Shown one piece after another: positions 1,031-22,588 of a stretch of DNA of 64,000 nucleotides (positions are counted from its first letter, which is position 1; the number at the start of each line of letters is the position of its first letter). A program made the position numbers and the translations under genes. The notes beneath the pieces were generated by a model. The model was not told where the DNA came from. It did not search any database and saw only the letters and a program-made list of their open reading frames with translations. The DNA is from Chelativorans sp. (GTDB lineage: Bacteria > Pseudomonadota > Alphaproteobacteria > Rhizobiales > Rhizobiaceae): assembly GCF_031180965.1 (NCBI RefSeq), contig NZ_JAPSLH010000009.1, forward strand, positions 62,001-126,000, written 5' to 3'.

Positions 1031-1079
1031 CAACACTCTCCCCAGCGGGGCGGCACCTCTGCCGCCCAGAACGTCCACT

Positions 1080-1087
1080 GTGTACAC
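1080..1087. promoter_or_regulatory. short palindrome GTGTACAC in divergent SDR/GntR promoter region
   Basis: A perfect 8-bp palindrome lies 50 bp upstream of the SDR start, in the 208-bp space shared with the divergent GntR-family regulator. Its position suits an operator. The short length means it could occur by chance. Confidence 0.25.
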
Positions 1088-1238
1088 TAGACAAAATTTC
1101 AGGGCAATCCGTATTGTGCGGCCGGATGATCTGCGCGTTGTGTGCCGACAGGCGGCACAAGTGCCAGCGAATTGCCGCGTCCTCCGGAAGCGGCTATTTT
1201 CGCCCTCCGCCAAACGGCGATAACAACGGAAGTCTCAC

Positions 1239-2240: not shown

Positions 2241-2359
2241 GCTGGGCCAGACCCGGACCGCCTCTGTCGGGGACCCCGGCCGTCCGGATTGCGCGCCGGA
2301 GGTAGAAGGCTGCCAGCGATCCCGCCTTACCCCATGAGCGGATGTCCGCTCTTGCCTCC

Positions 2360-3376: not shown

Positions 3377-3456
3377 GGGATCCTCGCTCGCTATGCTGCA
3401 GCGGAGAATTGCGCGGCCAGCGCACCGAAGTCAACGATTTTTCTCACCTAATGAGA

Positions 3457-6179: not shown

Positions 6180-6183
6180 AGAC

Positions 6184-7140: not shown

Positions 7141-7161
7141 GCTTTTCTCCTCCGCTGTGCC

Positions 7162-7182
7162 GTACCGCCGCATGAGCGGTAC
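7162..7182. promoter_or_regulatory. inverted repeat GTACCGC-N7-GCGGTAC, candidate operator of the TRAP operon
   Basis: Perfect 7-bp arms separated by 7 bp, 22-42 bp upstream of the binding-protein ATG. The size and position suit an IclR dimer, and an IclR gene lies in the same operon. Binding is inferred only. Confidence 0.45.
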
Positions 7183-7369
7183 CAAAATCCCTGAAAATGA
7201 GATTATTGGGCTATCATGCGCTCACCAGAGCGGCTTTTTCAAGCGCATTTCTCGCCGGGGGCGGTAGGGGGCGCGCGCAACCGAGGCCGCTCACGTCAAT
7301 TGACCCGCGGAGGTGACGTCTTCATCGACGATCCGGATATCCGGCACCGCGCTGTTTCATCGGGCGCAG

Positions 7370-8290
7370 TCAGGTATTCGCAAAACCGGGATCGAAGCGG
7401 GCGAGCGCCGCGGCATCCGGCAGGCCGGCACGGCCGCCGGGCATCATGCATTTCAGCGCAGCGACAGCGTTGGAGAAGGCGATGCCCCTCTCCAGGGGCC
7501 AGGACCGGGCAAGCGCCAGCGCCAGCGCGCCATGGAATGCGTCTCCCGCACCGACGGTGTCCACCGCCGCAACCAAGGGCGGCCGCGCGTTGGCGATCCC
7601 GCCCTCCGCCAGCCAGTGAAGGCCTTCGGCCCCGTCCGTCACCCCGACCAGGCGGTGGCCAGGCCGGGCCGCCCACCGCAGGCCTTCTTCCATGTCTTCG
7701 CTTCCGGAGAATTGCATCAGACCCGGGCGAGAGAACACGACATGGTCGGCCGCTTCGACAAGAGCTGCAACCTGTTGGCGCGGGTGGCGCGAAATGTCGG
7801 CGTCGAGCACGCGGGGAATGCCGCGGCTGGTGGCCGACTGGAGGGTCTTCAGCGCTCCTTCAGGCCAGGACAGGTCGCAGAGGACCGCGCCGCCAAGGCT
7901 CTCAGGTTCGAGCCAAGCGGCGTCTCCAGGCAGGTTCGGATCGGCATAGGCGACGATCAGCCTTTCCCCATGGTCGTCGACCAAGATGACGGAGCCCGGT
8001 GAATGATGACCCGGAAAAAGCTTCAGCCATCGCGTATCCACGCCTTCCTGTGAGAGTTCCTCGCGCAGCGTCTGACCGACCGCGTCCTCGCCGAGGCGGC
8101 CAGCGAAGACCGCCTTGCCCCCCAGCCGTGCGATCGCCACGCTGGCAGTGGCTGCTGGGCCGCCGCCCACCTCCCGGCGCGACCTGGCATAGATCTTGAC
8201 CGGCTGTGACGGGATCTCCGCCACGCTCATGATGATGTCCTGGATGGCGAGGCCGACGCAGAAGACCTCGCCCTGCACGCTGTCAGACAA
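7370..8290 (-). CDS. PfkB-family carbohydrate kinase
   Basis: About 306 residues of the ribokinase/PfkB family. The N-terminal GGGPAATASVAIARLGG and the C-terminal DTVGAGDAFHGA (catalytic Asp in GAGD) are intact. It phosphorylates a sugar or related polyol with ATP in the cytoplasm. The gene overlaps the end of the ABC ATPase gene. A TTG at 8290 with GACAGG upstream, or a GTG at 8278, is the likely start; there is no good ATG. Co-transcription with the ATPase ties it to the sugar imported by the divergent ABC genes. Confidence 0.87.
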   Translation of the reverse strand: MSDSVQGEVFCVGLAIQDIIMSVAEIPSQPVKIYARSRREVGGGPAATASVAIARLGGKAVFAGRLGEDAVGQTLREELSQEGVDTRWLKLFPGHHSPGSVILVDDHGERLIVAYADPNLPGDAAWLEPESLGGAVLCDLSWPEGALKTLQSATSRGIPRVLDADISRHPRQQVAALVEAADHVVFSRPGLMQFSGSEDMEEGLRWAARPGHRLVGVTDGAEGLHWLAEGGIANARPPLVAAVDTVGAGDAFHGALALALARSWPLERGIAFSNAVAALKCMMPGGRAGLPDAAALARFDPGFANT

Positions 8291-9383
8291 GCGCCGCACC
8301 TGTCTCAAGATGGAAGAGATGGAGCCGCTCGGCATCGACCTCGAAGCGGCAGGCACGGTCTCCGACGCGGACCGAACCCGGTTCGACACGTGCCATGATG
8401 TCGCGCCCGCCAAGCGAAACGACAGCCATCGAATCGGCGCCATGGTCCTCGACGAGCACAACATCGGACGTGAAACTGGAGGGGCTGGTGCCGCCCTCGT
8501 CCGTGAAGAGCGAAACATGTTCCGGGCGAAGGCCGACTTCCAGCCTTTCGACGCCCGCCTTTCGCAATGCCTCTGCTCGCGCTGCGGGCAGTAGGACCTC
8601 CTGCTCGGGGCCGAAGGCAAGGCGCACCGCCTCCCCGTCTTGCCGCAAACTGGCGGGAAGGAGACTCATGGGCGGGGAGCCGATAAAGCTGCCGACGAAG
8701 CTGTTAGCCGGCTTTTCATAGATGTCCATCGGTGTGCCGATCTGCTGTACCTCGCCCTGCCGCAGGACCACGATGCGGTCGGCCATCGTCATCGCCTCGA
8801 TCTGGTCGTGCGTGACATAGACGCTCGTCGTGCGCAGCGCGATCTGCAGCTTGCGGATTTCCATGCGCATGCCGACGCGCAGCTTCGCGTCGAGATTCGA
8901 CAGGGGCTCGTCGAACAGGAAAAGTTCCGGATCGCGGATCAAGGCGCGGCCCAGCGCAACGCGCTGACGCTGCCCGCCGGAAAGGGCCTTGGGCTTGCGG
9001 TGAAGCAGCGTGTCCAACTCGAGAACGGCGGCCACGTCGGCAACGCGCCTGGCGATCTCGTCGGGCGGCATGTCGCGCATCTTGAGCGCGAAGCCCAGAT
9101 TTTCCGCCACTGTCATATGCGGATAGAGCGCGTAATCCTGGAAGACCATTGCCATATCGCGGTCGCGCGGCGCCACATTGTTGAGATTGCGTCCGTCGAG
9201 CAGGATTTGGCCCGAGGTGACCTCTTCGAGCCCGGCAATCATCCGCAGCAGCGTGCTCTTGCCGCAGCCGGACGGACCGACAAGCACGATGAACTCGCCG
9301 TCCGCGACTTCCAAGTCCACGGCCTTTACCGCCACCACCGTTCCGAACCGCTTTTCGACAGCGCGCAGCGTCAGCCCTGCCAC
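8283..9383 (-). CDS. sugar ABC transporter ATP-binding protein (MalK/UgpC type)
   Basis: About 366 residues. Walker A GPSGCGKST at 36-44, signature LSGGQRQR at 134-141, Walker B LFLFDEP at about 155-160, and a C-terminal TOBE-like regulatory domain with GLRPEHV. This is the ATPase for the binding protein and permeases encoded at 14.1-17.2 kb. The preferred start is GTG 9383 (MAGLTLRAVEKRFG, GAGGG upstream); ATGs at 9416 and 9428 are possible but lie close to the operator and lack a ribosome-binding site. The operator at 9432-9444 lies just upstream, so it is likely ROK-regulated. Confidence 0.93.
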   Translation of the reverse strand: MAGLTLRAVEKRFGTVVAVKAVDLEVADGEFIVLVGPSGCGKSTLLRMIAGLEEVTSGQILLDGRNLNNVAPRDRDMAMVFQDYALYPHMTVAENLGFALKMRDMPPDEIARRVADVAAVLELDTLLHRKPKALSGGQRQRVALGRALIRDPELFLFDEPLSNLDAKLRVGMRMEIRKLQIALRTTSVYVTHDQIEAMTMADRIVVLRQGEVQQIGTPMDIYEKPANSFVGSFIGSPPMSLLPASLRQDGEAVRLAFGPEQEVLLPAARAEALRKAGVERLEVGLRPEHVSLFTDEGGTSPSSFTSDVVLVEDHGADSMAVVSLGGRDIMARVEPGSVRVGDRACRFEVDAERLHLFHLETGAALV

Positions 9384-9431
9384 TTTTCCCTCGCTCCCAT
9401 ATTGACAGTGGCCCATGCTAAAGCACAATAA

Positions 9432-9444
9432 TTACACAGTGTAA
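9432..9444. promoter_or_regulatory. perfect palindrome TTACACAGTGTAA, candidate ROK operator
   Basis: A 13-bp perfect odd palindrome in the short space between the divergent ABC ATPase and ROK regulator genes. It is 17 bp before the ROK start. Location, symmetry and A+T-rich surroundings make it the best candidate operator of the window; it would control both arms of the sugar locus. Confidence 0.6.
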
Positions 9445-9460
9445 ATATAACGGGATCTCA

Positions 9461-10654
9461 ATGGCGGGACGGGCGGCACCCAGGAGCAGGCGTGAGACGC
9501 GTGCCGTCGTGCTTGAGAGCCTGCTGCGCAACGATGGCGCATTCCGCCCCCATATTGCCCGGGAGACGCAACTCACCGAGGCGAGCGTCTCGCGCATCCT
9601 CGCCGAATTACGCAATGAAGGAATCGTCCAGGAAATCCGGCAGCCGGCGCCTTATCTTGGCGGACCCACGGCTCTCGTTACACTGAGTAAGAATATTCCG
9701 ATCGCCGGGATCGAACTTTCCAACAACCGGCTTTCATTCGGGATCGGCGATCTCGGCGGCAACCTGGACTATGTCGAACGGGTGCCAGTCTCGCCGCAGC
9801 TCAAGCAGGCCGAGTTCGAACGGCTCTTCGTTGATTGCCTGGCGACGATGGACCAATGGACCTGCAGGCGCGGCATCGCTGTCCGGCAGGCGGCCTTTTC
9901 ACTGCCGGGCTACGGCAGCGCGGACACCAATGCAATCTTTCCATGGGACATGCAGCGCCTGCGGGGCTTCCTGGCCGAGGCGCTGGAGGGCGTGCCGCTC
10001 GCTGTAACCAATTCCGTCATCGCCCAGGCGGCGTTCCATCGCTACTCGGACCGGGACGCTTATCCGGCGGTGGGGGACCACCTCTTCCTCTTCGTCGGAC
10101 ATGGCGTTGCTGGCGTTATCGTCAACGAGAGCGCGCCGATCGAGGCCTTCTCGCCCTTCGAGCTCGGCCATATGGTGCTGGAGCGGGGCGGCGCGCTCTG
10201 CCGCTGCGGCCACCGGGGATGCCTCGAGGCCTATACCTCCCTGGCGGCCGTCTCCGAGATCATCGGTCTTCCGGAAACCGAGGTCCTGCAGCGGGGAGAT
10301 CGCTTCATAGACACGCTGAACTTCGACCAAGGCGCGCGCGAAAGGCTGCGCGAGCGCCTGTTCCTGCTTGGGCTCGGCACGGGAAATGCGCTTAACCTGC
10401 ATCCGCTCCCTTCCGTGGTCGTCAGCGGTTGGCCGTCGCTCCTTTCCCCCGATGACAGGGAGGCGATCATGGAGGGGATGGACCAGAGCCTGCTCGGCGG
10501 CTTCGACCCCGAACGTCTGGGGATCTCATTCATCGCGCCGTCGATCGGGAATGATCCGCGGGCGGCGCTTTACTATGCGGCCTATTGTTTCGTGCGCGCC
10601 GGCGGGCTGGACGCAAGGTCCGAGCAACGCCCGCTCGAAGAGGAGAATGCCTGA
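9461..10654 (+). CDS. ROK-family transcriptional regulator (NagC/XylR type)
   Basis: 397 residues. An N-terminal winged helix (about 12-65, LTEASVSRILAELRNEGIV) is followed by the ROK sugar-kinase-like fold with the zinc-binding motif CRCGHRGC (Cys247, Cys249, Cys254). ROK repressors respond to a sugar or phosphosugar. It is the first gene of the plus-strand sugar operon; its stop is directly followed by the ATG of the next gene. It is expected to repress this operon and the divergent ABC ATPase/PfkB genes through the palindrome at 9432-9444. Confidence 0.92.
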   Translation: MAGRAAPRSRRETRAVVLESLLRNDGAFRPHIARETQLTEASVSRILAELRNEGIVQEIRQPAPYLGGPTALVTLSKNIPIAGIELSNNRLSFGIGDLGGNLDYVERVPVSPQLKQAEFERLFVDCLATMDQWTCRRGIAVRQAAFSLPGYGSADTNAIFPWDMQRLRGFLAEALEGVPLAVTNSVIAQAAFHRYSDRDAYPAVGDHLFLFVGHGVAGVIVNESAPIEAFSPFELGHMVLERGGALCRCGHRGCLEAYTSLAAVSEIIGLPETEVLQRGDRFIDTLNFDQGARERLRERLFLLGLGTGNALNLHPLPSVVVSGWPSLLSPDDREAIMEGMDQSLLGGFDPERLGISFIAPSIGNDPRAALYYAAYCFVRAGGLDARSEQRPLEEENA

Positions 10655-12016
10655 ATGACGGTGCTGCACGATACCGAAGGCGGCGGCCGCGGAACCGACA
10701 GACATGTGGGCATCCTCTTCGTTGCCTCTCCCCTTTTCTCTGAAAGCGCGGCGAAAGATCTCGTCGGGCGGACCAAGGCACTGGCCGAAAGCGGCGCACT
10801 TCAGGGAAGCCTGCGCGTTGCAGGCACGCTTGCGCGCGACCGCGCGAGCTGCGCCGAAGCTCTGCGATCGCTCGATCTGGAAAGCCTGGATGGACTGATT
10901 GTGCAGCTCTCAACCTTTTGCACGGCCGAGCTTCTGCACGAGTTGCTCGCGCATATAGGCCACCGCAGCATCCCTCTCGCACTCTGGGCGCTGGAAGAAG
11001 ACAGCGAGATCGTGACCAATTCCCTTTGCGGGGCGCAGCTTTGGGGTTCCACCCTCTCCCGCTTCGGCCGCCGCTTTTCGCTTCTCGTCGGCAATCCCGA
11101 TGATCCGCGCATCGCCCGAGATCTGGCCGCTTTCGCGGCGGCCTCGCGGGCGCTGGCGAAGATCACAGGCGCGCGCGTGGCGCTGATCGGCGCCCATGCC
11201 GAGTGGTTCACGAATCTCGCCGTCGATCCTTGGGCGCTGAAACAGGCTCTCGGGGTAACCATCGAGCAGACGACGCTGCTCCGCTTCCTGGAGGGCTGCA
11301 AGGCGGAAGAAAGGGCGGAAAAAGCTGCGGCGATGCGCTGGGCCGGCGCGCGCTTTGACGGCGGCGACGAGGAGAACGGGCGCCATACTCTCGGCAGCAC
11401 CTATGCCAGGCTGGAAGCGGGGCTGGAGAGGATCGCGGCGGACGCGATCGCCATTCGCGACTGGCCCGAAATCCTCTACGCGCCGGAGTTCCGAGGCACG
11501 TGGGGCGCGTTGGGAGAACTTTCCGATCGGGCAGTGCCGATCGCGCCGGAGGGCGATGTCATGGGAGCCGTGACGGCGCTCGCCATCCGCGGCTTTGATG
11601 CCGCCTCCCTCCCCTTTCTCACCGATATTTCAGGGTTGGACCGCGCCAACAACCGCCTGGTTCTCTGGCACTACGGGGTGAGCCCCCGGCTTGCCGACGG
11701 CACCCGCTGGCTGGATTCCGTCCTCAAGCAGGAAAGCTTTTCGCTCAAGGCGGGACCGATGACGCTGCTGCGGCTTTCGCTGCGCAATGACGGCAAGCTG
11801 CGCATCTTCGTGGCCGAAGGCGAAATCGAAGCGGAGCATCCGAAGGCAAACCGGGCCGCAGGCTACTTCCGCCCGTCCGGCATGGAGGCAGAAGCCTTTG
11901 TCCGCCGCTTTATCGAGCAGGGCTACGAGCACCATGTGACTGCCGTCTATGGGCATTGGGCGGATGCGACGCTCCATCTAGGGCGCCAGCTCGGGGTCGA
12001 GGTCGACCATGCTTGA
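10655..12016 (+). CDS. L-fucose/L-arabinose isomerase-like protein
   Basis: 453 residues. The C-terminal half resembles the fucose-isomerase-like family: EGDVMGAVTALAIRG, then a FLTDISGLDRANNRLVLWHYG segment (usual form LWHCG) and a following substrate-domain beta region. The N-terminal part has a Rossmann-like GILFVASPLF start. Such proteins interconvert aldoses and ketoses, but many members have no proven activity. It is translationally coupled to the ROK gene (TGA directly followed by ATG) and overlaps the GH31 gene by 8 bp, so it very likely acts on the sugar released by that glycosidase. Exact substrate unknown. Confidence 0.65.
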   Translation: MTVLHDTEGGGRGTDRHVGILFVASPLFSESAAKDLVGRTKALAESGALQGSLRVAGTLARDRASCAEALRSLDLESLDGLIVQLSTFCTAELLHELLAHIGHRSIPLALWALEEDSEIVTNSLCGAQLWGSTLSRFGRRFSLLVGNPDDPRIARDLAAFAAASRALAKITGARVALIGAHAEWFTNLAVDPWALKQALGVTIEQTTLLRFLEGCKAEERAEKAAAMRWAGARFDGGDEENGRHTLGSTYARLEAGLERIAADAIAIRDWPEILYAPEFRGTWGALGELSDRAVPIAPEGDVMGAVTALAIRGFDAASLPFLTDISGLDRANNRLVLWHYGVSPRLADGTRWLDSVLKQESFSLKAGPMTLLRLSLRNDGKLRIFVAEGEIEAEHPKANRAAGYFRPSGMEAEAFVRRFIEQGYEHHVTAVYGHWADATLHLGRQLGVEVDHA

Positions 12017-14054
12017 AGGCGCGTGCTTTTCCGATCTACTGCCGAGCGGGGCACCGTACCGCCCGGTACTCATCGGCTGGCGCGCCGGATCCGGCTCGTG
12101 GACGGATATTCACTTCGACGGGAACACGGAACTCAACATCCAGGTGACGTCCGGCGACGAGGGGCGGAGCATTCGCGTAACCGCCGCCAGGCCCGGCGCC
12201 GCGGCCATGCAGATCGCCTTCCCTGTTCCGGCCAGTTTTCAGGCCTTCGGCGGCGGCGAGCGGTTCGACACGCTCGATCTGCGCGGCCAGACGGTCCGCT
12301 ACTACCTGGAGAATTTCGGCCTGGGCAACGGGACCTATCTCCCGAGCCCGTGGATCGCCACCACTCTGGGCTACGCGGTCTTCCTCGCGGATGAAGCGCC
12401 GGCGGTCCTCCACATCGCGCCGTCCTTCGATCCCAACCTGCTGCGCATCCAGGTCGAAGGCGACCGCCTCGACTTGGAAATTCATCTCGGCAACGTTCCC
12501 GAACTCTACGGGCTGCTCATCAAGAGGATCGGGCCGCCGCTGATGCCGGAGGACCACTTTTTCAGCCTGTGGAAGGCGGGCGACTGGCGCTTCGAGAATG
12601 CGAAAACGGTCGCGGACGATGTGAAGGGTTACGCCGAAATGGGCCTGCCGCTGGGCGTCAAGCTCATCGACGCCTATTGGGCGAGCGAGGTCCATTCCTT
12701 CTCCTTCGACACAGAAAAATACCCGGACGCCAGGAGCATGGTGGCCGATCTCAAGAATAAGGGCACCGATGTCTATCTCTGGCTCTGCCCATGGGTGGTC
12801 GTCGGCACCCGCTCCTTCGAGCATGCGAAGGCGAAGGGCTATGTGATCGCCGATGCGGAAGGGCGGCTTATCACCCGGCGTCCCGGCGCCAATCCCAATG
12901 TGGTCGCTGCGCTGATCGACTTTTCGAACCCGGAGGCGCGGGCCTGGTGGACAGACAGCCTGCGCCGTCTTCTTCGACAGGGCATCAAGGGGTTTAAGGC
13001 CGATTTCGGCGAGCAACTGCCCGAACATGCCGTCCTGAAGTCCGGCGAGACCGGCGGGCGTGCCCACAACGCGTTTGTGCGCTATTATCTTGAAGCGACG
13101 ATCGATGCCTTCGATGGACGCACCCCGGCGATCATCAGCCGCTCCGGCTCGCCGCGCGTGCGGGCTCCCATCTGGAGCGGCGACCAGACCTCCGACTTTT
13201 GTCCAAAGACCGGGCTGCCATCAGCCATCCGCGCGGTGCAGAGTGCCGCCCTCTCCGGCTGGTCTTTCATCGGCAGCGATCTCGGCGGCTATTTCGGCAC
13301 GCCGACGCCGCAGGTTTTCGCGCGCTGGACCCAATTTGCCTGCTTCACGCCGCTGATGATGCTGCACGGGCTCGGCTGCCGCGAGCCGTGGGACATGGAT
13401 GAGGGATCGGCCGCGATCTACAAGCGCTTTGCCCGCCTGCATCTGGCGCTGCTGCCGACGTTTCAGCACTATGGCAGGCTCGCGGCGCAGGGGGGACCGC
13501 CGCTCCTGCGCATGATGCCGCTCGCCTTCCCCGAAACGGACTGGCGCGGCGTCAACGACTGGGACCAGCAATTCATGCTGGGCGATGATCTGCTCGTCGC
13601 CCCCGCCGCCTTCTATGGCAACACGCGGGCGGTCTATCTGCCCGCGGGCGACTGGTACGACGTGCTTGCCGGCGAATGGGTGCGTGGCCCCGCCTGGCGC
13701 ATCCGCGACGTGCCCTTGCAGGATATCCCAATATTCGTGCGCGCCGGCGGCAGCATCGTCCTGGCGGCCGACGCCGCGAAGCGTGAGGCGCTGGCCGTGA
13801 GCTTCGTCCATCCGGAGCAGTATGGCGACACCACCATCGGACTTGGTGCCCTCCCCTCCTCGGCTGAAGATGGCTGGAACATCCGCTGGGTTGGCATCGC
13901 CGGCACGAAAGGGCGGGCGCGCATCCGCGGCGCGACCGCAACAGGCGGCTCGCGGCTGCAAGCCGAGGTCGAGGACTGGTTTGGGACGGATATCGCGTGG
14001 TCGGCAGTAATGGACGGCGGGGCGCTTGAAATCACGCTGACAGACGCGCCGTAG
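12009..14054 (+). CDS. GH31-family alpha-glycosidase
   Basis: 681 residues, no signal peptide, so probably cytoplasmic and acting on an imported glycoside. The catalytic nucleophile is Asp332 in KADFGEQLP and the acid/base is Asp392 in WSGDQ. The N-terminal galactose-mutarotase-like domain has AFGGGERFDTLD. The KADFGE and GDQ motifs recall both alpha-xylosidases and sulfoquinovosidases, but the tryptophan-rich loop I would expect in sulfoquinovosidases is not evident; the segment is VKLIDAYWASEVHSF. Specificity is therefore left open. Lies between the isomerase-like gene and the ABC binding protein. Confidence 0.88.
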   Translation: MLEGACFSDLLPSGAPYRPVLIGWRAGSGSWTDIHFDGNTELNIQVTSGDEGRSIRVTAARPGAAAMQIAFPVPASFQAFGGGERFDTLDLRGQTVRYYLENFGLGNGTYLPSPWIATTLGYAVFLADEAPAVLHIAPSFDPNLLRIQVEGDRLDLEIHLGNVPELYGLLIKRIGPPLMPEDHFFSLWKAGDWRFENAKTVADDVKGYAEMGLPLGVKLIDAYWASEVHSFSFDTEKYPDARSMVADLKNKGTDVYLWLCPWVVVGTRSFEHAKAKGYVIADAEGRLITRRPGANPNVVAALIDFSNPEARAWWTDSLRRLLRQGIKGFKADFGEQLPEHAVLKSGETGGRAHNAFVRYYLEATIDAFDGRTPAIISRSGSPRVRAPIWSGDQTSDFCPKTGLPSAIRAVQSAALSGWSFIGSDLGGYFGTPTPQVFARWTQFACFTPLMMLHGLGCREPWDMDEGSAAIYKRFARLHLALLPTFQHYGRLAAQGGPPLLRMMPLAFPETDWRGVNDWDQQFMLGDDLLVAPAAFYGNTRAVYLPAGDWYDVLAGEWVRGPAWRIRDVPLQDIPIFVRAGGSIVLAADAAKREALAVSFVHPEQYGDTTIGLGALPSSAEDGWNIRWVGIAGTKGRARIRGATATGGSRLQAEVEDWFGTDIAWSAVMDGGALEITLTDAP

Positions 14055-14096
14055 CGCGCCATCGACAATGAAGCTGAATAACGGAGGAGAACAGCG

Positions 14097-15335
14097 ATGA
14101 GCAAAAATGGAACGTGGAAGACGAGCGCGGCGGGTATAGCCCTCGCTGTGGGTATGGGCATGTCGCCCGCCATGGCCGACAATGTCGTCCTGTGGGTAAA
14201 TTCGCCGCTGGCATCCGCCCCGGACGCGCCGATCTATGAAGAACTCCAGGCCTTCGAGGCAGAGACCGGCCACGCGGTCGAAGTGCAGCCTGTTGCGCAT
14301 ATGGAGATGGAGCGCAACCTGTTCGTCGCGCTTTCCGGCGGCGCGGGTCCCGACGTCATGGCGCTGGACATCGCGTGGGTCGCCGGACTGGCAGATGCAG
14401 GTCTTCTCGCCGACCTGACCGAGAAGTCGGAGCCGCTCGCGGCGCAATTCCAGAAAGGCCCATTCGCCAGCGGCCGCTTCGAGCAGAAGCAGTACGCACT
14501 TCCGCTCTACACCAACAATGTCGCGCTCTTCGTCAACGACAAGATGCTGGCCGAAGCCGGAATCGAAAAGGCGCCAACGAATTGGGATGAGTTTCGCCAG
14601 GCGGCGATCGCCATGACCGACGAGGAGAAGGGCACCTATGGGCTAACATTCGGGGGCGGCCGCATGGGCGCCTTCCAGCTCTACAGCTATATCTGGCAGA
14701 ATGGCGGGGACATCATCGACACGGAAGGGAATGTGCGCGTCGGCGAGGCGGGCGCGGTGGGCGCGGTCGATTTCCTTGGCAAGCTCTACACCGAAGACAA
14801 GGCGATGCCGGAAGCGGTGCTTACGGCTGGCTCCTGGGACGAGGTGAACGCGCCCTTCATCCAGGAGCGCGCCGGCATGCTGGTCAGCGGCGATTGGGCT
14901 ATTTCCGCGCTGAAGAACGGCAATCCTGATCTCGACTGGTCTGTTCACCCGCTGCCCGCCGGCAAGGAAGCGGCGACCGTGATCGGCGGTTATGATCTCG
15001 CCATCAACGCCAATAGCTCGGTTCCCGATGCGAGCTGGCAACTGGTCGAATGGCTGACTGGCCCGCGTGGCGTAGAGCTGATGCGCAAGTATAACCGCCT
15101 CTCGGCGGCCGCCGGCGCGACCGCGCCCGAGGCGATCGCCTCCCTGCCGGAGGAGATGCGGCCCTTCATGGAGCAGGCAGACGCCGGCCGCGCCCGCCCC
15201 GTGGTTGCCCAGTGGAGCCAGATACACAACGAGATCATCGCCAATGCCTGGGATTCCGTACTGCGCGGTACCCCCGCCCAGGAGGCGATGGCCGAGGCGG
15301 ACAAGCAGATCAAGGCCCTTGTTGGACAGCAGTGA
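14097..15335 (+). CDS. sugar ABC transporter substrate-binding protein
   Basis: 412 residues. Signal peptide at the N-terminus (cleavage near PAMA-DNV) followed by a family-1 extracellular solute-binding fold (SGGAGPDVMALDIAWVAGLADAG; YTNNVALFVNDKMLAEAGI). Periplasmic receptor for a sugar or oligosaccharide, working with the two downstream permeases and the divergent ATPase. A strong ribosome-binding site GGAGGAG precedes the ATG, 42 bp after the GH31 stop. Confidence 0.93.
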   Translation: MSKNGTWKTSAAGIALAVGMGMSPAMADNVVLWVNSPLASAPDAPIYEELQAFEAETGHAVEVQPVAHMEMERNLFVALSGGAGPDVMALDIAWVAGLADAGLLADLTEKSEPLAAQFQKGPFASGRFEQKQYALPLYTNNVALFVNDKMLAEAGIEKAPTNWDEFRQAAIAMTDEEKGTYGLTFGGGRMGAFQLYSYIWQNGGDIIDTEGNVRVGEAGAVGAVDFLGKLYTEDKAMPEAVLTAGSWDEVNAPFIQERAGMLVSGDWAISALKNGNPDLDWSVHPLPAGKEAATVIGGYDLAINANSSVPDASWQLVEWLTGPRGVELMRKYNRLSAAAGATAPEAIASLPEEMRPFMEQADAGRARPVVAQWSQIHNEIIANAWDSVLRGTPAQEAMAEADKQIKALVGQQ

Positions 15336-15339
15336 CGGA

Positions 15340-16284
15340 ATGACACCGCGCACCCTTCCCGGACGCACGCTAAGGAATACTTGGTCCTCAGTCTTCGAGA
15401 CCGGGTGGGGTGCGCACGCCTATCCGTACCTGATGGTACTGCCGGCGGTGGTGGTTGTTATAGGGGTCGTGGTCTACCCGCTCGCCTCCGGCATCATCAC
15501 CGCCTTTTATGACGTGACGCTGAGGACATTGAACAGCGGTTCGGCCGAGTTTGTCGGCTTGCGGAATTTCGAACGCGTCCTTGCCGATCCTGCCTTTGTG
15601 CAGGCCTCGGTAAATACCGTCATCTGGGTGGTTCTCAACGTCGTCGTCCAGCTCGCGCTGGGATTGGCGCTCGCGCTGCTTTTGCACAGAGCCATGCCGG
15701 GCATCGGCTTCTTCCGCTCCGGGATCCTCGTGCCCTGGGTGGTGCCGAGCGTGGTGGCGGTGCTCACCTGGAGGTGGATGTACGACCCGAGCGTTGGCAT
15801 CGCCAATGAGCTTCTCGTGCGGCTGGGGCTGATCGACAACTATCACCCCTGGCTAGGGGACACCTCGACGGCGCTTTATGCGGTGACGGTGGAGAGTATC
15901 TGGAAAGGCACACCCTTCGTCATGCTCCTGCTTCTTGCCGCCCTGCAACTGGTGCCGCGCTCGATCCTGGAAGCCGCCTCCATGGACGGCGCGTCGGGCT
16001 GGCGCAAACTCTGGTACGTTATCCTCCCGCAGATCCGCGTCTCCTTTGCCATCGCGGCGGTGCTGACCTTCATCCTCACGGTCAACAACTTCAACGCCAT
16101 ATGGCTCATGACCGAAGGCGGGCCGCTGAACTCGTCGGAAATCCTGTTCACGCTCGCCTACAAATACGGCTTCAAGCGCTTCGACCTCGGCATGGCGTCA
16201 GCCGTAGCCACGATGCTGTTTGTCGGTCTCGTTATCGCCACCACCGTCTATCTGAAACTCATCCAGGCGCGCGAGGGCGACTGA
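15340..16284 (+). CDS. sugar ABC transporter permease (MalF type)
   Basis: About 314 residues with six predicted membrane segments and the EAA loop EAASMDGASGWRKLWYVILP that contacts the ATPase. The frame extends back into the binding-protein gene, but the ATG at 15340, 4 bp after the previous stop, starts the normal cytoplasmic N-terminus; a TTG slightly upstream is an alternative. Its stop overlaps the start of the second permease (TGATG). Confidence 0.92.
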   Translation: MTPRTLPGRTLRNTWSSVFETGWGAHAYPYLMVLPAVVVVIGVVVYPLASGIITAFYDVTLRTLNSGSAEFVGLRNFERVLADPAFVQASVNTVIWVVLNVVVQLALGLALALLLHRAMPGIGFFRSGILVPWVVPSVVAVLTWRWMYDPSVGIANELLVRLGLIDNYHPWLGDTSTALYAVTVESIWKGTPFVMLLLLAALQLVPRSILEAASMDGASGWRKLWYVILPQIRVSFAIAAVLTFILTVNNFNAIWLMTEGGPLNSSEILFTLAYKYGFKRFDLGMASAVATMLFVGLVIATTVYLKLIQAREGD

Positions 16285-17183
16285 TGGAGGCCGCAGCCAT
16301 TCATGAACGCGAGCAGGAGAAGCTTGCAGCGAGGCCGAAAAGCCGTGCGCTGCGCCTGCCCAGGCAGGTCCGCACAGGATTGCTCTACCTTTCCCTCTGG
16401 ATCGCCTTCATCTGGGCAGTCTTCCCCTTCTACTGGATGATAGCCACCTCGATCCGTGGCAAGGAAGAGATTTTCCAGCGTCCGCCGAGCCTCCTCCCGC
16501 ATACGGTGACGATCCAGAACTATGTCGATCTCCTGGTCGGCGCGCAGTTCTGGCGCTACGCCATGAACAGCCTGATCCTGACCTTGGGCGTCACGATCAT
16601 CAGCGTCCTCATCTCCGTGACTGCCGGCTATGCGATGGCCCGCCACCGCTTCAAGGGCTCGGTGATGCTGCCCCTCTTCATGCTCTATGGGCAGATGTTC
16701 CCGCCGGTGCTGCTGCTCATTCCCTTTTACGTCCAGCTCCGTTTCCTTGGCTGGCTGGACAGCCTGTACGGGCTTACCCCGGTTTATCTGAGCTATATGC
16801 TGCCGCTTTGCGTATGGCTTATGCGCGGCTTCTTCTCGCAGGTGCCCCTCTCGCTGGAGGACGCCGCCCGCATGGACGGCTGCACGCGCTGGCAGGCCTT
16901 CTGGAAGGTTATCCTGCCGATGGCGCGGCCCGGCATCGTCGCGGTCGCCACCTGGGTGATGATCCACACCTGGAATGAGTTCCTCTATGCCAGCACCTTC
17001 ATCCTCAGCGAGAAGAAAAGGACGCTGCCGCTGGGCCTTAGCGGCCTTATCGGCCAGTACACGACCGACTGGGGCGTGCTGATGGCGGGCGGCGTGATCA
17101 CAGCGGCCCCCATCCTGCTTGTCTTCTTCTTTCTGCAAAGACACCTGGTCTCCGGCGTCGGCGGGGGCGCGGTGAAGGGCTGA
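16284..17183 (+). CDS. sugar ABC transporter permease (MalG type)
   Basis: 299 residues, six membrane segments and the EAA-type loop EDAARMDGCTRWQAFWKVIL. The start ATG overlaps the stop of the first permease by one base, so the two are coupled. It completes the importer together with the binding protein (14.1 kb) and the divergent ATPase (8.3 kb). Confidence 0.93.
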   Translation: MEAAAIHEREQEKLAARPKSRALRLPRQVRTGLLYLSLWIAFIWAVFPFYWMIATSIRGKEEIFQRPPSLLPHTVTIQNYVDLLVGAQFWRYAMNSLILTLGVTIISVLISVTAGYAMARHRFKGSVMLPLFMLYGQMFPPVLLLIPFYVQLRFLGWLDSLYGLTPVYLSYMLPLCVWLMRGFFSQVPLSLEDAARMDGCTRWQAFWKVILPMARPGIVAVATWVMIHTWNEFLYASTFILSEKKRTLPLGLSGLIGQYTTDWGVLMAGGVITAAPILLVFFFLQRHLVSGVGGGAVKG

Positions 17184-17200
17184 GTTCGAGCGGAGCATTC

Positions 17201-18328
17201 ATGACCAAGATCAAGCGCATCCAGGCTTTCCCCCTCTCCTGCCCGACGCCGGGCGGAGCGGTCTTTGCCGTCGGACGCTCAGCCAAGCGCGACATGGTGC
17301 TCGTGCGCATCGAGACGGAAGTCGGCATCGTCGGCTATGGCGAGGCGCATCATGCGCAGACGCCGAGCACGATCGCCGCGTTCATCAACGACGCGCTCGG
17401 GCCCTCGCTCATGGGCATGGATGCGCATGAGACCGAGGCGATCTGGAAGAAGGCCTATCACCACTTCATCGCCACCCATGGACCCGGGGCGGCGGCGGTG
17501 ATCGGGCTCAGCGGCGTCGATCTTGCGCTCTGGGACATCAAGGGCAAGGATCTCGGCCAGCCGGTCTGGCGGCTCCTCGGCGGCAAGCGCCGACCGATCC
17601 CCGCCTATGCGGGCGGCATCAGCCTCGGCTTCCAGCCGCCCGACGAGCTGAAGCGCGAGGTGGAAGGCTTCATAAAGCGCGGCTACAGCTTCATGAAGCT
17701 CAGGGTCGGCGACACGCTGGAGAGGGATCTGGAGCGCGTGACCGCAGTTCGCAAAGCGTTCCCTGAACTCGCGCTGGCCGCCGATGCCGGTACGCGCTAC
17801 CGCACCGCGGACGTCGCGCGCATCGCGGAGATCTGCGAGGCGGGCCGCCTCGTCTGGCTGGAAGAGCCTTTCACGCCGGACAATCTGCCCGGGTACCGCC
17901 GCCTCAAGGAAGTGACCGCCACGCCGCTTGCGGCGGGCGAAAACCACTTCACGCGCCATGAGCTGCGCCAGCTCATTTGCGAGCAGGTGATCCAATTCGT
18001 GCAGGCCGATTGCTGCAAGACGGGCGGCATCACCGAAATCCTCAAGATCGCGTCGCTGGCCGACAGCTGGCATCTGCAATTCGCGCCGCACACCAGCGCC
18101 TCGGTGCTTTCCACGGCAGCTTCCGTGCACGTGCTCTCGGTGGCGCCGAATGCGTTCATCTATGAGGCGGACGTTTCCGCGATCAACGCCTTCCGCGACG
18201 ATCTCGGCACGCCGTTTGAGATCAAGGATGGGACAATCATCGCCCCGGAGGGACCGGGACTGGGCATCGAAATCGATGAAAGCTTCGTTGCGAAATATCC
18301 GTTCATCCCCGGCGCTTCCTATCAGTAG
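17201..18328 (+). CDS. enolase-superfamily (mandelate racemase/acid-sugar dehydratase-like) enzyme
   Basis: 375 residues. Capping domain, then a modified TIM barrel with metal ligands Asp195 (ADAG), Glu221/222 (EEPF) and Glu247 (AGENH) and the Asp270-His297 dyad (QADCC, APHTS) of the mandelate racemase group. The usual KxK base motif reads Lys166-Leu-Arg168, and the residue two after Asp195 is Gly instead of Asn. Family members mostly dehydrate sugar acids. It starts 17 bp after the permease stop, so it is the last gene of the sugar operon and may process an aldonate or uronate. The KxR change makes an untested specificity likely. Confidence 0.88.
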   Translation: MTKIKRIQAFPLSCPTPGGAVFAVGRSAKRDMVLVRIETEVGIVGYGEAHHAQTPSTIAAFINDALGPSLMGMDAHETEAIWKKAYHHFIATHGPGAAAVIGLSGVDLALWDIKGKDLGQPVWRLLGGKRRPIPAYAGGISLGFQPPDELKREVEGFIKRGYSFMKLRVGDTLERDLERVTAVRKAFPELALAADAGTRYRTADVARIAEICEAGRLVWLEEPFTPDNLPGYRRLKEVTATPLAAGENHFTRHELRQLICEQVIQFVQADCCKTGGITEILKIASLADSWHLQFAPHTSASVLSTAASVHVLSVAPNAFIYEADVSAINAFRDDLGTPFEIKDGTIIAPEGPGLGIEIDESFVAKYPFIPGASYQ

Positions 18329-18335
18329 GAGCTGG

Positions 18336-18725
18336 CTATGCGGGAGCAGCCGCGACGGCCTCGACCTCCACGACGAATTCGGGGCGGCTGAAGCCCGCCA
18401 CGATCATCAAGGTGGATGCGGGATATGGCGCGGCGAAAAGGCGGTTGCGGACCTCCATATAGGCTCCCATGTGCTCGCGGGCGGTGACGAAGGCATTGAT
18501 GCGCACAATGTTGGAGAGGTTCATCCCCTCCTGCCTGAGCACCGCCTCGATATTGGCAAAGCAGAGCTCAGCCTGGGCGGTGCACCCGTGGGGAACGCTG
18601 CCGTCGGGCGCGACGCCAAGCTGCCCGGAACAGAAGAGCAGCCGCGAATTGCCTGGAACGAGCACGCCGTGACTGTAAGCGGAAAACGGCGCGGCAATGT
18701 CGGGAGCGTTGATCGACTTCAGCAT
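18336..18725 (-). CDS. RidA-family (imine/enamine deaminase) protein
   Basis: 129 residues with the YjgF/YER057c/UK114 fold: FCSGQLGVAPDGSV, NIEAVLRQEGMNLSNIVR, and the C-terminal SRPEFVVEVEAVA with the arginine expected at the active site. RidA proteins hydrolyse reactive 2-imino or enamine intermediates in the cytoplasm as trimers. It converges on the enolase-superfamily gene (7-bp gap) and is divergent from the creatininase gene, sharing a 278-bp promoter region that holds a perfect palindrome. It therefore probably belongs with the nitrogen-compound genes to its right. Confidence 0.88.
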   Translation of the reverse strand: MLKSINAPDIAAPFSAYSHGVLVPGNSRLLFCSGQLGVAPDGSVPHGCTAQAELCFANIEAVLRQEGMNLSNIVRINAFVTAREHMGAYMEVRNRLFAAPYPASTLMIVAGFSRPEFVVEVEAVAAAPA

Positions 18726-18879
18726 TGTTCAAATCCTGTCCAGGGTTCCGGCGCGAGTGGCGGCGGTGGCCGCCGAGACGCGCTCCAGTTTTGCAAATTA
18801 TTGACCGGGCAAGAAAATTCGCCTAACCCTCGGCGACCCCATGGCACAGGGCTAACAAGGAACGAGCCGCAACTCAACT

Positions 18880-18896
18880 TGATCGTGGAACGATCA
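18880..18896. promoter_or_regulatory. 17-bp palindrome TGATCGT-N3-ACGATCA, candidate operator
   Basis: Perfect 7-bp arms around GGA, in the region between the divergent RidA and creatininase genes. No regulator gene is adjacent, so the factor may be encoded elsewhere. Length and symmetry make chance unlikely. Confidence 0.5.
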
Positions 18897-19003
18897 TAAG
18901 GAGGCGCGTCGTGCTCGTTCATTCGGACCGAAATCCTCTCTCCCGGGTCAGCCGCCGGCTCAGGACGAGCCGCCGCGACCTCTGCTTTCCGAAAGAAGTA
19001 GCC

Positions 19004-19831
19004 ATGACTAGCCGCAGCGCCCGGTGGGCCGATCTTACGCACCTGGATTTTGCCACTCTGGACCGGAACCGCGCGATCGCCGTGCTGCCGGTCGCCGCCA
19101 TTGAGCAGCACGGACCGCATCTTCCGGTCTCGGTGGATGCGGATATCGCCGATGCGGTGACCGAGCGCACGCTTCCCCTGCTCGATGCCGATCTGACAGT
19201 GCTCTTCCTTCCCAGTGTCGGCTACGGCAAAAGCAACGAGCATGCGGCCTTTCCCGGTACGCTGACGGTCTCGGCAGAGACCCTGATCCGCGTGCTGATG
19301 GAGATCGGTGAGAGTGTCGCCCGCGCCGGCATCAGGCGGCTCGTGCTCTTCAACACCCATGGCGGGAACAGCCCGGTGCTCGACATCGTCGCCCGCGATC
19401 TGAAGATCGCGCATGGGGTCCGGACGGCCGCGTGCCACTGGTACAATTTCAACGAGGCTGATGCCGCGACCGACCGGTCTGAGCAGGCCTTCGGCATTCA
19501 TGCCGGGCTGGTCGAGACCAGCGTGATGCTGGCGATCAAGCCTGATCGGGTGCGTATGGAGCGCGCGGCGGATTTCAGGAACGCGGCGGGTGACTGGCAG
19601 GGCCGCTATGCACGGATCGGGCTGACCCCGGGCCGCGCGCGGCCCGGCTGGGTCATCGAAGACCTCAACGAGGACGGGGCCTGCGGGAACGCGGCGGCGG
19701 CGACACGGGAGCTTGGCGAGCGGCTTCTCGAGACGGCGTCGCGCAATTTTGCGGCCTTTCTCGCTGAATTCGACCGCTTCTGCCGCGACATGGAGGAAGC
19801 GCGGCCAAGCAGCGGCGACGGGAGGAATTGA
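19004..19831 (+). CDS. creatininase-family amidohydrolase
   Basis: 275 residues. Metal-site residues of the family are present: Glu34 and His36 in IEQHGPHLP, Asp45 in VDADIAD, and NTHGGN with the next His at about residue 120. Members open cyclic amides such as creatinine or formamidopyrimidines, or act in cofactor biosynthesis. The frame runs upstream, but the ATG at 19004 with GAAAGAAG gives the normal N-terminus. Its stop overlaps the ATG of the FAD oxidase (TGATG), so the two are coupled. The function is likely hydrolysis of a cyclic amide within the local pathway. Confidence 0.87.
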
Positions 19832-21249
19832 TGTCCATCTCCGGCAAGACCACGATCGACTGGCAGGCCTTCAGGCAAGCGCTTGGCGACGTGGAAAGTG
19901 TCGATACGCCTTCCATCGTCAAAAAGCGCTCGCGCGACTTCTTCTGGTACAGCCCGATTCTCAACCGAGAGCTAGCCGGCCATTTCGGCGACCTGGTGGT
20001 CGTGCCGCGCGATATCGGCGAGCTCAAGACCTGCATCGCCACAGCCTTCGATTGGAACGTGCCGACGGTCGTGCGCGGCGGGGGGACCGGCAATTACGGA
20101 CAGGCGGTGCCGATGGATGGTGGCCTGATCATCGACATGACTAGCATCAACCGCATCCCCGAAATCAGCGGCGAAACAGTGCATGTGGAGGCGGGCTGCA
20201 AGATCGCTGCGATTAACAAGGCGCTGCACGAGCATGGCCGCGAGCTGCCGATCTTTCCTTCCACGGAGGCGATCGCGACGATCGGCGGCTTCATTGCCGG
20301 CGGCTCCGGCGGCATCGGCTCCATAACCCACGGAATGCTGCGTGACAGAAAGAATATCGAGTCGATCGCGGTGCTTTCGATGGAGAATCCGCCGCAGCGC
20401 CACCTCTTCGAAGGCGAGGAGATCGCCTCGATTCACCATGCCTGGGGTCTGAACGGGATCATCACGGATCTCGTGCTGCGGACCGTGCCGGCGCGGAACT
20501 GGATGAATGTCATTGCCTCCTTCAGCACCTACCGACAGGCTTTCGAAGCAGCCGTCGAAATCGGCTCAAGCCGGAACTTCGAGCTCAAGCTGCTGACGAC
20601 CATTGACGCTGGGATCGCCGCCTCGATCCACAGCCTCGGCGCGCTCGGCCAGGGCGGCCGCGCGCTTCTCCTTGCCATGGTGGACGATGCGGATGCGTTG
20701 CGGGACGTCGTGCGCGAGCGTGGCGGAGAGGTGGCTGTCGCCGCCGATGCGGCCGGACTTGCGGCGACTGGCCTGCCGCATCTGTCCGAATTCTCTTACA
20801 ACCACACCACCCTTCAGGTGCTCAAGAACGACCGCAGCGTCACCTATCTGCAGGTGACCGTCCCCCCGCCGCTCGATGGGCGGAAGATCGAGGCGCTGCA
20901 GGCCGTTTTCGGCGACGAAGTGATGATGCACCACGAGTTTGCGCTTCTGCGCGGGCAATTGGTGGCCTTCGACCTTCCGGTGGTGCGCTATTCCTCCGAC
21001 GAGCGGCTGTTCGAGCTGATGCGGATCTACGAGGCGCATGGCTGCCCAACCTCCAACCCGCACGTTCCCTATGTGGAGGGCGGCTCGATGAAACCGGACT
21101 ACCGCCACCTGGCATGGAAGAAGCGGCTCGATCCCAAGGGGCTGCTCAATTCGGCCAAGTCCCGGCGCTGGAACGAGGTGAAGCATCTCTCCGCCGACGA
21201 AATCGAACAGCTTCCGAGCAGGGTGCCGGCCGCGGAGACCGCGGCATGA
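19831..21249 (+). CDS. FAD-binding oxidase (PCMH/VAO-type)
   Basis: 472 residues. The PCMH-type FAD domain is evident: [14 protein letters not shown], the pyrophosphate loop [13 protein letters not shown], and [13 protein letters not shown]. There is no signal peptide, so it is cytoplasmic. Such enzymes oxidise alcohols, amines or hydroxy acids. GGAGG sits 5 bp upstream of the ATG, which overlaps the creatininase stop. With RidA next door, an oxidation that yields an imine is an attractive but unproven role. Confidence 0.87.
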
Positions 21250-21334
21250 GGCCCGGAACGGCACTGCGTAAGGGCGAACGCTCCCACAGAGTGGTTGCAC
21301 AATCTCGGCGGCGATGCGGGACCATCTGGGCGAG

Positions 21335-22588
21335 ATGACAGACGGCGTTTACGGAAATGTTCGGGTGCCGCGCTCGTTGGTTGCCGACGAGAGCCGCTTC
21401 GGCGGCCGCCTGGAGGGGGACTGCCTTATCGGTGACCTCGTCGTGAGGGACGGCAAAGTGGCGGGGATGGCTCGGGAGGGAAGCGCGCCGCTGGATCTTG
21501 AGGGCCGCATCCTCACCCCGACGCTTGTGGAAGCCCACTGCCACCTGGACAAGTGCTTCACGGCCTCACGGCTCGATTTTGCCGGCGGCACGCTTCTCGA
21601 CGCCATCGACGCGCAGGCGCGGGACAAGGCGCACTGGACGCGCGAGGACATACGCGCCCGGGCGCTGCGGGGTCTTGAGGAACTCTGGGCCTCCGGCTGC
21701 CGGTTTGCGCGAACGCATGTGGATTGGGCCGTCAATCCGACCGATCCGTCGCACGCCCCGCTTGCCTGGGAGGTGCTGGGCGAGATCGCTGAGGAATGGC
21801 GGGACAGGTTCACCCTCCAGAGGGCAGCCCTCCTGCCCATCGAGGCCTTTGCGGCGGAGGAGATCGCGACCCCGCTCGCCGCTCGGGTCGCGCAAGACGG
21901 CGGAGTCCTCGGCGCCTTCGTCTTCGGGCAGGACGGAGCGCGGGAGAGCGTTCGCAGGATGGTCCGCGTCGCCCGTGACCATGAAATCTCCCTTGACTTC
22001 CACGTCGACGAAGACCTGTCGCCCACGCTTAAAGGACTGGATTTCGTTGCGGAAGCCGTGGCATCGGAGCGCTTCGATGGGCCCGTCCTCTGCGGCCATG
22101 CGTGCAGTCTGAGCACGATCGAAGGAGACCAACTCCACCGGCGGATCGAGCGCATCGCCGAGGCTGGCCTGACGATCGTCTGCCTCCCCACCAGCAATCT
22201 CTATTTGCAGGACCGAGGAGCCGGCACGCCGACGCGCCGGGGCATCACCCGCGTGCAGGAGCTGATTAAGAGAGGCGTCCCCCTCGCCTTCGGGACGGAC
22301 AATGTGCGCGACGCCTTCTGCCCGATCGGCGCGCACAACCCCTTCCAGAGTCTCGCATTCGGCATCCTGGCCGCCCAGTTGGAGCCGCCCGCTGGCCGCT
22401 GGTTGCCCTGCATCACCCATGCGGCCGAACGAGCTCTCGGGTTTAAAGAGACGATGGTGGAGGGCTGCCCGGCCGACCGGCTGCTTCTGTGGCACGCCCG
22501 TGAGACGGCCGACCTCCTGGCGTCATCGCCTGCCCGCCCGCCGCAAGAACTCCCGGCGACATTGCGCCGCGCGCGGCGGCGTAGTTGA
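21335..22588 (+). CDS. cytosine-deaminase-like amidohydrolase
   Basis: About 417 residues of the CodA/N-isopropylammelide group. Metal-site motifs: EAHCHLDK (HxH), FHVDE, CGHA and GTDNVRD. These enzymes deaminate or hydrolyse N-heterocycles such as cytosine, creatinine or ammelide-like compounds. The start is uncertain: ATGs at 21314 and 21335 are in frame, neither with a good ribosome-binding site. It follows the FAD oxidase by 64-85 bp on the same strand and completes a creatininase, oxidase, deaminase set. Confidence 0.85.
   Translation: MTDGVYGNVRVPRSLVADESRFGGRLEGDCLIGDLVVRDGKVAGMAREGSAPLDLEGRILTPTLVEAHCHLDKCFTASRLDFAGGTLLDAIDAQARDKAHWTREDIRARALRGLEELWASGCRFARTHVDWAVNPTDPSHAPLAWEVLGEIAEEWRDRFTLQRAALLPIEAFAAEEIATPLAARVAQDGGVLGAFVFGQDGARESVRRMVRVARDHEISLDFHVDEDLSPTLKGLDFVAEAVASERFDGPVLCGHACSLSTIEGDQLHRRIERIAEAGLTIVCLPTSNLYLQDRGAGTPTRRGITRVQELIKRGVPLAFGTDNVRDAFCPIGAHNPFQSLAFGILAAQLEPPAGRWLPCITHAAERALGFKETMVEGCPADRLLLWHARETADLLASSPARPPQELPATLRRARRRS

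Follow-up and report, generated by a model that had tools for sequence, protein, structure and literature searches.

The locus considered here lies in a stretch of 64,000 nucleotides from Chelativorans sp. (GCF_031180965.1, contig NZ_JAPSLH010000009.1, positions 62,001-126,000 of the forward strand), hereafter the window, and brings together four genes for putative ring chemistry, a sugar operon and a conserved leader. The original prediction had named the four genes as RidA on the minus strand and creatininase, flavin adenine dinucleotide (FAD) oxidase and CodA-like hydrolase on the plus strand, and all four are present at the positions given here. The RidA-family (L-PSP) protein, a putative imine/enamine deaminase, is encoded at 18336..18725 on the minus strand, divergent from the other three, and 278 base pairs separate its start from the ATG of the creatininase-family gene. 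The latter (19004..19831, plus strand, with an alternative in-frame start possible at 18911) encodes an amidohydrolase that is a putative ring-amide or formamide hydrolase, and its stop codon overlaps the ATG at 19831 of the FAD_binding_4 oxidase/oxygenase gene (19831..21249, plus strand) in the sequence TGATG. The gene for the CodA-like amidohydrolase, a putative pterin deaminase (21314..22588, plus strand), begins 64 base pairs after the FAD oxidase gene. Upstream of these ring genes and on the same strand lies the sugar operon, which ends at 18328. The boundary of 18336-22588 drawn originally is too narrow because this adjoining operon belongs to the conserved locus; the original description was silent on the operon and on the leader (18836-18904).

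Conservation of the ring module

Failure of the four-gene neighbourhood to recur in relatives had been named beforehand as grounds for giving up the idea of a common pathway, and the neighbourhood does recur. Loci were chosen with an alignment of FAD proteins alone (17 sequences), and the best 80 of at least 586 confirmed relatives were kept. Neighbouring genes were sought by tblastn at 55 bits or more with references from the FAD-selected loci, keeping the best of overlapping matches (the floor was 50 bits for the tally of sugar loci and second clusters below, and 60 bits in one other search). Among the best 80 FAD loci, 68 have a CodA-like gene, 56 a creatininase-family gene and 43 a RidA gene; all three partners are found in 33, at least two in 59 and none in five. 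The 55 loci that exceed 21,000 bases contain CodA-like genes in 49 cases, creatininase-family genes in 41 and RidA genes in 33. A few of the CodA-like matches are weak (31%). The RidA count is too low because the remaining loci are shorter and because tblastn missed the divergent RidA of one locus (L160), which was recovered by Pfam. The window's own genome (4.37 Mb) holds three creatininase, 11 RidA-family and two CodA-like matches, and the chance expectation calculated from these counts is about 0.013, 0.047 and 0.009, respectively, per locus of mean length. The counts in the FAD loci are far above this expectation of less than one per locus, so the grouping is not due to chance.

Together with one further locus (L080), the best 80 loci divide into group A (33 loci) and group B (48 loci). 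Group A is mostly from Rhodobacterales, with the Ruegeria TM1040 megaplasmid as an annotated example, and its FAD proteins are 47-77% identical to that of the window; 21 of the 33 loci have a TauD-like dioxygenase, and 21 have a peptide-type binding protein. A glutamine amidotransferase-like gene (12232-12927 in L080) also lies within this Rhodobacterales version and occurs in 12 of the 33 loci. In group B the best FAD copy is about 37-43% identical to the window protein and an NMT1-type ATP-binding cassette (ABC) transporter adjoins the genes (permease in 40, ATPase in 37 and binding protein in 36 of the 48 loci). Sixteen group B loci carry a TetR regulator resembling that of L065, which, as the one member scanned, is RutR-like and under the RutR cut-off (148 vs 368 bits). 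A gene resembling NAD(P)H oxidoreductases was detected in 24 loci, all outside group A (the one scanned reaches 78 bits; cut-off 162).

A second creatininase-family gene in the window's own genome (contig C43, L196) is accompanied by a sugar ABC transporter, an oxidoreductase and a glycolate-oxidase-like FAD protein. This was considered as a copy of the window's creatininase/FAD group and rejected, as it is a different cluster of the sugar-oxidoreductase type with a similar parts list.

Ring enzymes and their relatives

The model of the FAD protein (predicted local distance difference test, pLDDT, 85.9) has its best Foldseek match in Protein Data Bank (PDB) entry 6v42 (E 1.5e-38, template modelling score, TM, 0.87), with the next match at 8.3e-20. 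The PDB title of 6v42 is "flavin oxygenase with cofactor bound involved in folate catabolism". The two proteins match at 2e-90 by phmmer. The 6v42/6v43 oxygenase and the window protein share their fold and the GTGNYGQ and NHTTL motifs and are 38% identical over 449 columns, whereas the window protein sits on another branch (its identity to the FAD proteins of folate-type loci is about 40%). Against 6v42, the group B FAD protein of Agrobacterium albertimagni (L142) scores 680 bits, the match spanning residues 8-445 of 467, and 6v42 is accordingly a group-B-like enzyme. The window FAD protein is thus a full-length homologue of the folate-catabolism flavin oxygenase 6v42 with, by its model, the same fold, and its reaction on a pterin or lumazine is putative. 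A gene for a ferredoxin-reductase-like flavoprotein adjoins the FAD gene in three sugar loci (L062, L174 and L175; 49-53% identical to that of L065) and is also found in 11 of the 48 group B loci; it could possibly supply electrons to the flavin oxygenase.

The CodA-like protein was aligned with E. coli CodA and 11 relatives. The metal and catalytic set (HxH, His, Glu, His and Asp) is kept, and the Gln of FPQEG and the Asp after the metal Asp, which we take to be the cytosine-binding residues of cytosine deaminase, are replaced in all 12 aligned CodA-like proteins. The window protein also misses all listed NCBIfam cytosine-deaminase models (the best is PRK07583, 307 vs 403 bits). It is 38-40% identical to three Variovorax CodA-like proteins, among them a 38% relative in V. 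boronicumulans (L160) whose gene has an L-PSP endoribonuclease (RidA) family gene directly downstream. According to the available part of You et al. 2022 (PMC9513972), a pterin deaminase that is 37.0% identical to Arad3529 was cloned from Variovorax sp. F1, and a primer was designed on conserved 'endoribonuclease' genes downstream of predicted V. paradoxus deaminase genes. The identity between the window and Variovorax proteins is as close as that between F1 and Arad3529, and this, together with the RidA-family gene downstream in L160 as in that report, suggests that the CodA-like protein is a putative relative of pterin deaminases.

The creatininase-family protein meets PF02633 (242 vs 31 bits gathering) and misses the creatininase equivalog TIGR04448 (100.4 vs 235 bits). 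As described in the accessible portion of PMC9478397, BrbF was first annotated as a creatininase and is a formamidase that deformylates a formamidopyrimidine. By analogy, a reaction of the BrbF type is the sort that would be needed after opening of a lumazine ring, and such a role for the creatininase-family protein is putative. The RidA protein passes PF01042 (77 vs 27 bits gathering) and is under NCBIfam TIGR00004 for Rid family detoxifying hydrolases (61.5 vs 106 bits). The RidA family clears imines and enamines, and the role assigned to the protein here comes from this knowledge of the family.

The idea that the four genes form one route for an N-heterocycle agrees with these enzyme types, which could deaminate, oxidise, hydrolyse an amide and clear an imine or enamine. 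The creatinine- or hydantoin-like substrate suggested with it does not fare as well. The family names and the PF02633 and CodA-like folds speak for such a pathway, whereas both the creatininase and the cytosine deaminase equivalog cut-offs are missed, the specificity residues are replaced, and neither a hydantoinase nor a creatinase is among the genes identified in the locus (no search was aimed at them). A pathway for creatinine or hydantoins was therefore rejected on model cut-offs and residues and is very improbable; pterins are the likely substrate class. Nor is the pathway wholly undescribed in type, as had been supposed, because folate or pterin breakdown includes relatives of both the FAD and the CodA-like protein, according to the 6v42 title and to what is available of PMC9513972.

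Another possibility is that enzymes of the same types act on a glycosylated purine, pyrimidine or flavin-like compound. The folate-type relatives with an NMT1-type ABC transporter and the RutR-like TetR regulator point in this direction, as does an extra amidohydrolase in six loci. One of these proteins (3474-5006 in L155, the only member scanned) adjoins a folate-type cluster and exceeds the cut-off of the 8-oxoguanine deaminase model (657 vs 532 bits); similar proteins are found in the five further loci. The CodA-like family also includes the amidohydrolase encoded next to the atz genes of Pseudomonas sp. ADP on pADP-1 (7974-9305 in L161, a 39% relative), which sits behind a BMP-type ABC transporter. 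Those FAD and CodA-like relatives for which a role is reported, in the 6v42 title and in the available text of PMC9513972, belong instead to folate breakdown, and a substrate other than a pterin is on balance unlikely.

The attached sugar operon and the conserved leader

On the plus strand the sugar genes encode a ROK-family regulator (9461..10654; PF00480, 43 bits), a SftI/fucose-isomerase-like sugar isomerase (10655..12016; PF02952, 51 bits), a GH31 alpha-glycosidase (12009..14054; PF01055, 178 bits), a sugar ABC substrate-binding protein (14097..15335; PF01547, 148 bits), two ABC permeases (open reading frames 15205..16284 and 16101..17183, each with its true start probably further in) and an MR_MLE (enolase superfamily) enzyme that resembles sugar-acid dehydratases (17201..18328; PF13378, 196 bits; closest PDB entry 3bjs). 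Divergent from the operon, on the minus strand, are a sugar ABC transporter ATPase (8283..9428) and a PfkB sugar kinase (open reading frame 7370..8620, with the domain from about residue 117; PF00294, 155 bits). The ATPase and permeases were assigned by reading the sequence, without a family-library scan, and have homologues in the sugar loci, those of the ATPase and the first permease at the same place. A separate cluster at 287-7185 encodes a short-chain dehydrogenase/reductase, a GntR regulator, an Amidohydro_2 protein (2360-3376), an IclR regulator and a transporter with an NMT1_3-type binding protein (6184-7185); it looks like an aromatic or carboxylate pathway from a family scan of 2360-3376 and 6184-7185 only.

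Orthologues of the isomerase are rare, occurring in eight of 394 genomes of the window's family, in one of 385 of its class (the window's own) and in three of 146 genomes of one genus, two of which were already counted. Ten distinct sugar loci were obtained from the genome samples and from a metagenome-assembled genome of Aquamicrobium (L083); L081, L082 and L084 duplicate L060, L061 and L176, and each pair was counted once. In all ten, the creatininase-family and FAD genes are the next genes after the sugar operon on the same strand, and this joining of a rare isomerase/GH31/ABC operon to creatininase and FAD genes is new. The MR_MLE gene is present in nine of the ten, RidA and CodA-like genes in the same five, and in five the divergent RidA gene lies between the sugar operon and the creatininase-family gene. 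At the thresholds used, every genome in which the isomerase was detected has the arrangement of sugar operon followed by creatininase and FAD genes.

Nine of the ten sugar-locus genomes (all except that of L083) were searched for a second FAD copy. The five whose sugar locus is without CodA-like and RidA genes (G176, G156, G764, G735 and G834) all carry a second, folate-type FAD copy that is 38-39% identical, and the four whose sugar locus has both genes (the window's own genome, G070, G669 and G729) carry none (Fisher's exact test, one-sided, 0.0079; 0.014 without G834). Whole-genome searches of G176, G156, G764 and G735 found no close CodA-like copy but one at 34-37%, and the second clusters of these four genomes contain CodA-like, creatininase, RidA and NMT1-type ABC genes. 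The simple reading of this pattern is that the sugar locus and the folate-type cluster can share a deaminase and a RidA, and therefore that the two loci act on one kind of ring, with the creatininase and FAD proteins of the sugar locus being specific to it.

The sugar genes could instead serve a separate sugar and merely share a locus and a regulator with a pathway for folate or pterin rings. The ring module is mostly found without sugar genes (isomerase and GH31 matches occur in four of 33 group A and none of 48 group B loci), and in six of the ten sugar loci the leader and RidA mark a transcription start of its own for creatininase. This explanation has to contend with the placement of creatininase and FAD genes next on the same strand in ten of ten loci, in four of which there is no leader and only a short gap, and with the joined arrangement in every isomerase-bearing genome found, and we regard it as unlikely.

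The nature of the sugar was approached through the glycosidase, four members of which were aligned with the sulfoquinovosidase YihQ. Both catalytic Asp residues are kept. The positions of YihQ Gln262, Gln288, Arg301 and Trp304, which we take to be substrate positions of the sulfoquinovosidase, are absent in all four aligned members, where there is a 13-residue gap, and a sulfoquinovoside is therefore unlikely. Degradation of a sulfoquinovose conjugate is favored by the isomerase, which matches the SftI model NF048012 at 117 bits, by the kinase, whose closest PDB entry is the sulfofructose kinase 7ag6, and by the Tyr508 position, which GH31 keeps. The isomerase is, however, far under the model cut-off of 700 bits and four of the five tested GH31 substrate positions are absent, so this reading was rejected and its probability is slight.

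The leader precedes the creatininase-family gene in six of the ten sugar loci (the window, L061, L062, L083, L174 and L175). Its conserved core (18836..18872, plus strand) consists of ACCCCATGGCACAGGGCT, five variable bases, G, a nearly fixed base and AACGAGCCGCAA, and is followed by a hairpin (TGATCGT-GGA-ACGATCA, 18880..18896, plus strand), a Shine-Dalgarno sequence (AAGGAGG, 18898..18904, plus strand) and a start codon. In the window a GTG-started reading frame (18911..19003, plus strand) runs in frame into the creatininase-family gene, whereas the other five loci have a separate upstream open reading frame of 32-35 codons whose stop overlaps the creatininase ATG. In L060, L176, L177 and L229 the element is absent and creatininase lies a short gap after the preceding gene. 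Across the six loci, 31 of the 37 columns of the core are invariant, with a longest run of 18; third codon positions in the same loci are invariant at 35 of 270 in creatininase (longest run 11) and 73 of 471 in FAD (longest run 8), or 13-16%. None of the 11 alignment columns before the core is invariant, and 15 of the 44 after it are. TTGAC(A/C) boxes were seen by eye 35 bases before the core in four copies (the window, L061, L062 and L175), so the core would start near a transcription start; a promoter scan called no promoter at these boxes.

The core is too invariant for its covariation to be informative. In the hairpin, for which a six-pair helix was counted, two of the six pairs are changed on both sides and 97.2% of cells are paired; its covariation score was reached by 21 of 500 shuffles, and that of an alternative fold by 11 of 500. 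Part of the core is paired with the Shine-Dalgarno region in the consensus fold. Pairing of those bases with a UGGC loop is an alternative, and the leader may switch between the two states. Single-sequence folding energies were no better than those of shuffles in the four copies tested, which counts against a very stable RNA. No Rfam family matches at gathering, and permissive scans of three copies gave only scores far below gathering. The exact pattern was found in none of the viral contigs, plasmids gave no match to the leader, and a mismatch-tolerant search over all collected loci found no further true copy beside duplicates. A covariance model run on 81 of the 237 source sequences (1.54 Mb) found the six copies at 91 bits or more and the next match at 13.8 bits (E 2). 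The palindrome at 18880-18896 was rejected as a repeated regulator operator, since it occurs once in the window. The 37-nucleotide conserved leader without an Rfam match is a new observation, and by its conservation it is a candidate cis-regulatory RNA, perhaps of a new kind, for which binding of a ligand is hypothetical.

A candidate pathway and related systems

We consider that there is an even chance that the locus (7370-22588) is one catabolic unit that acts on a pterin joined to a sugar, or on a fused N-heterocycle much like it. Cyanobacteria make pterin glycosides at high levels, some of them alpha-linked as GH31 would need, and a pterin glycoside, for example from cyanobacteria, is the leading guess for the substrate. 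The ABC transporter would import the conjugate and GH31 would cut its alpha-glycosidic bond, after which the isomerase, the PfkB kinase and the MR_MLE enzyme would channel the sugar into metabolism. The CodA-like enzyme would take off the 2-amino group, converting pterin to lumazine, the FAD flavoenzyme would oxidise the ring, the creatininase-family enzyme would hydrolyse the ring amide or formamide so formed, and RidA would clear a reactive imine or enamine. We infer every substrate in this scheme, the order of its steps and the glycosidic nature of the compound.

Several observations weigh against a single unit of this sort. Literature searches found no paper behind 6v42, and its role in folate catabolism is that of the PDB title alone; likewise, the CodA-like protein is linked to pterin deaminases through Variovorax proteins, not by direct comparison with Arad3529 or F1. 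In the group A loci of Rhodobacterales the TauD-like dioxygenase and peptide-type binding protein take the place of the sugar genes, and the branches may therefore have different ring substrates. The swap pattern comes from few genomes and from events that are not independent, as three of the five genomes share a genus. Moreover, the G834 contig stops about 1.3 kb past the FAD gene and the genome search for CodA-like genes covered the other four of these five, and a distant CodA-like gene (35%) is present elsewhere in G729. FAD copies of the folate type or similar are common in the family in any case; matches to the FAD proteins at E <= 1e-60 occur in 77 of 199 sampled genomes of the window's family and in 19 of 385 of its class. 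To these are added the Tyr508 position kept by GH31 and the resemblance of the isomerase and kinase to sulfosugar enzymes.

A more specific version, in which a sugar-cleaving operon joined to a folate-ring module for catabolism of glycosylated pterins is controlled by a new riboswitch class sensing the pterin or a breakdown product, is rather unlikely. Such a class would possibly comprise the 37-nucleotide core, an H-type pseudoknot (UGGC/GCCG) and release of the Shine-Dalgarno sequence.

The natural dismantling of the pterin ring, in folate and in related pigments, is largely open. Searches of open-licence papers found neither a full route for breakdown of the pterin or folate ring nor one for breakdown of pterin glycosides, and the deaminated product is the end point of pterin breakdown in the part of PMC9513972 that is available. 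The conserved neighbourhood names the FAD oxygenase, creatininase and RidA as candidates for the ring-opening steps after deamination, which are present in many Alphaproteobacteria and some Betaproteobacteria and can be tested one gene at a time. In its sugar-linked form the neighbourhood suggests pterin glycosides as a nutrient, and the short leader RNA offers a candidate regulatory element that is likewise open to experiment.

Parts of the locus resemble systems that have been described. The Rut pyrimidine pathway also has a RidA-family member, and the folate-type relatives have a RutR-like regulator, whereas no other Rut protein is among the genes identified in the loci (no search was aimed at RutA, B, D or F). 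BrbF resembles the window creatininase in that its annotation was creatininase and its substrate, in the portion of PMC9478397 at hand, is a pyrimidine formamide and not creatinine; in contrast to the window enzyme it is biosynthetic (riboflavin) rather than catabolic, and it is likened here by description, not by sequence. The THF-II riboswitch, which by the available text of PMC9881143 is known from Mesorhizobium and binds the pterin part of its ligand, has like the leader a Shine-Dalgarno sequence inside the RNA fold. The leader differs in having its own conserved 37-nucleotide 5' core and no Rfam match at E up to 10 in three scans (the presence of THF-II among the Rfam models was unchecked), so THF-II may by analogy hint at the kind of mechanism but at no more than that. 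A counterpart in ring chemistry is the folate catabolism of Variovorax sp. F1 and Agrobacterium (Arad3529), which shares with the window an aerobic soil bacterium as its host, a CodA-like deaminase with an adjoining RidA-family gene and, by the title of 6v42, a related FAD oxygenase for folate catabolism. In the available part of PMC9513972 that system is described as carboxypeptidase G and deaminase, with neither sugar genes nor a creatininase step, whereas the window locus has a sugar module and an RNA leader attached.

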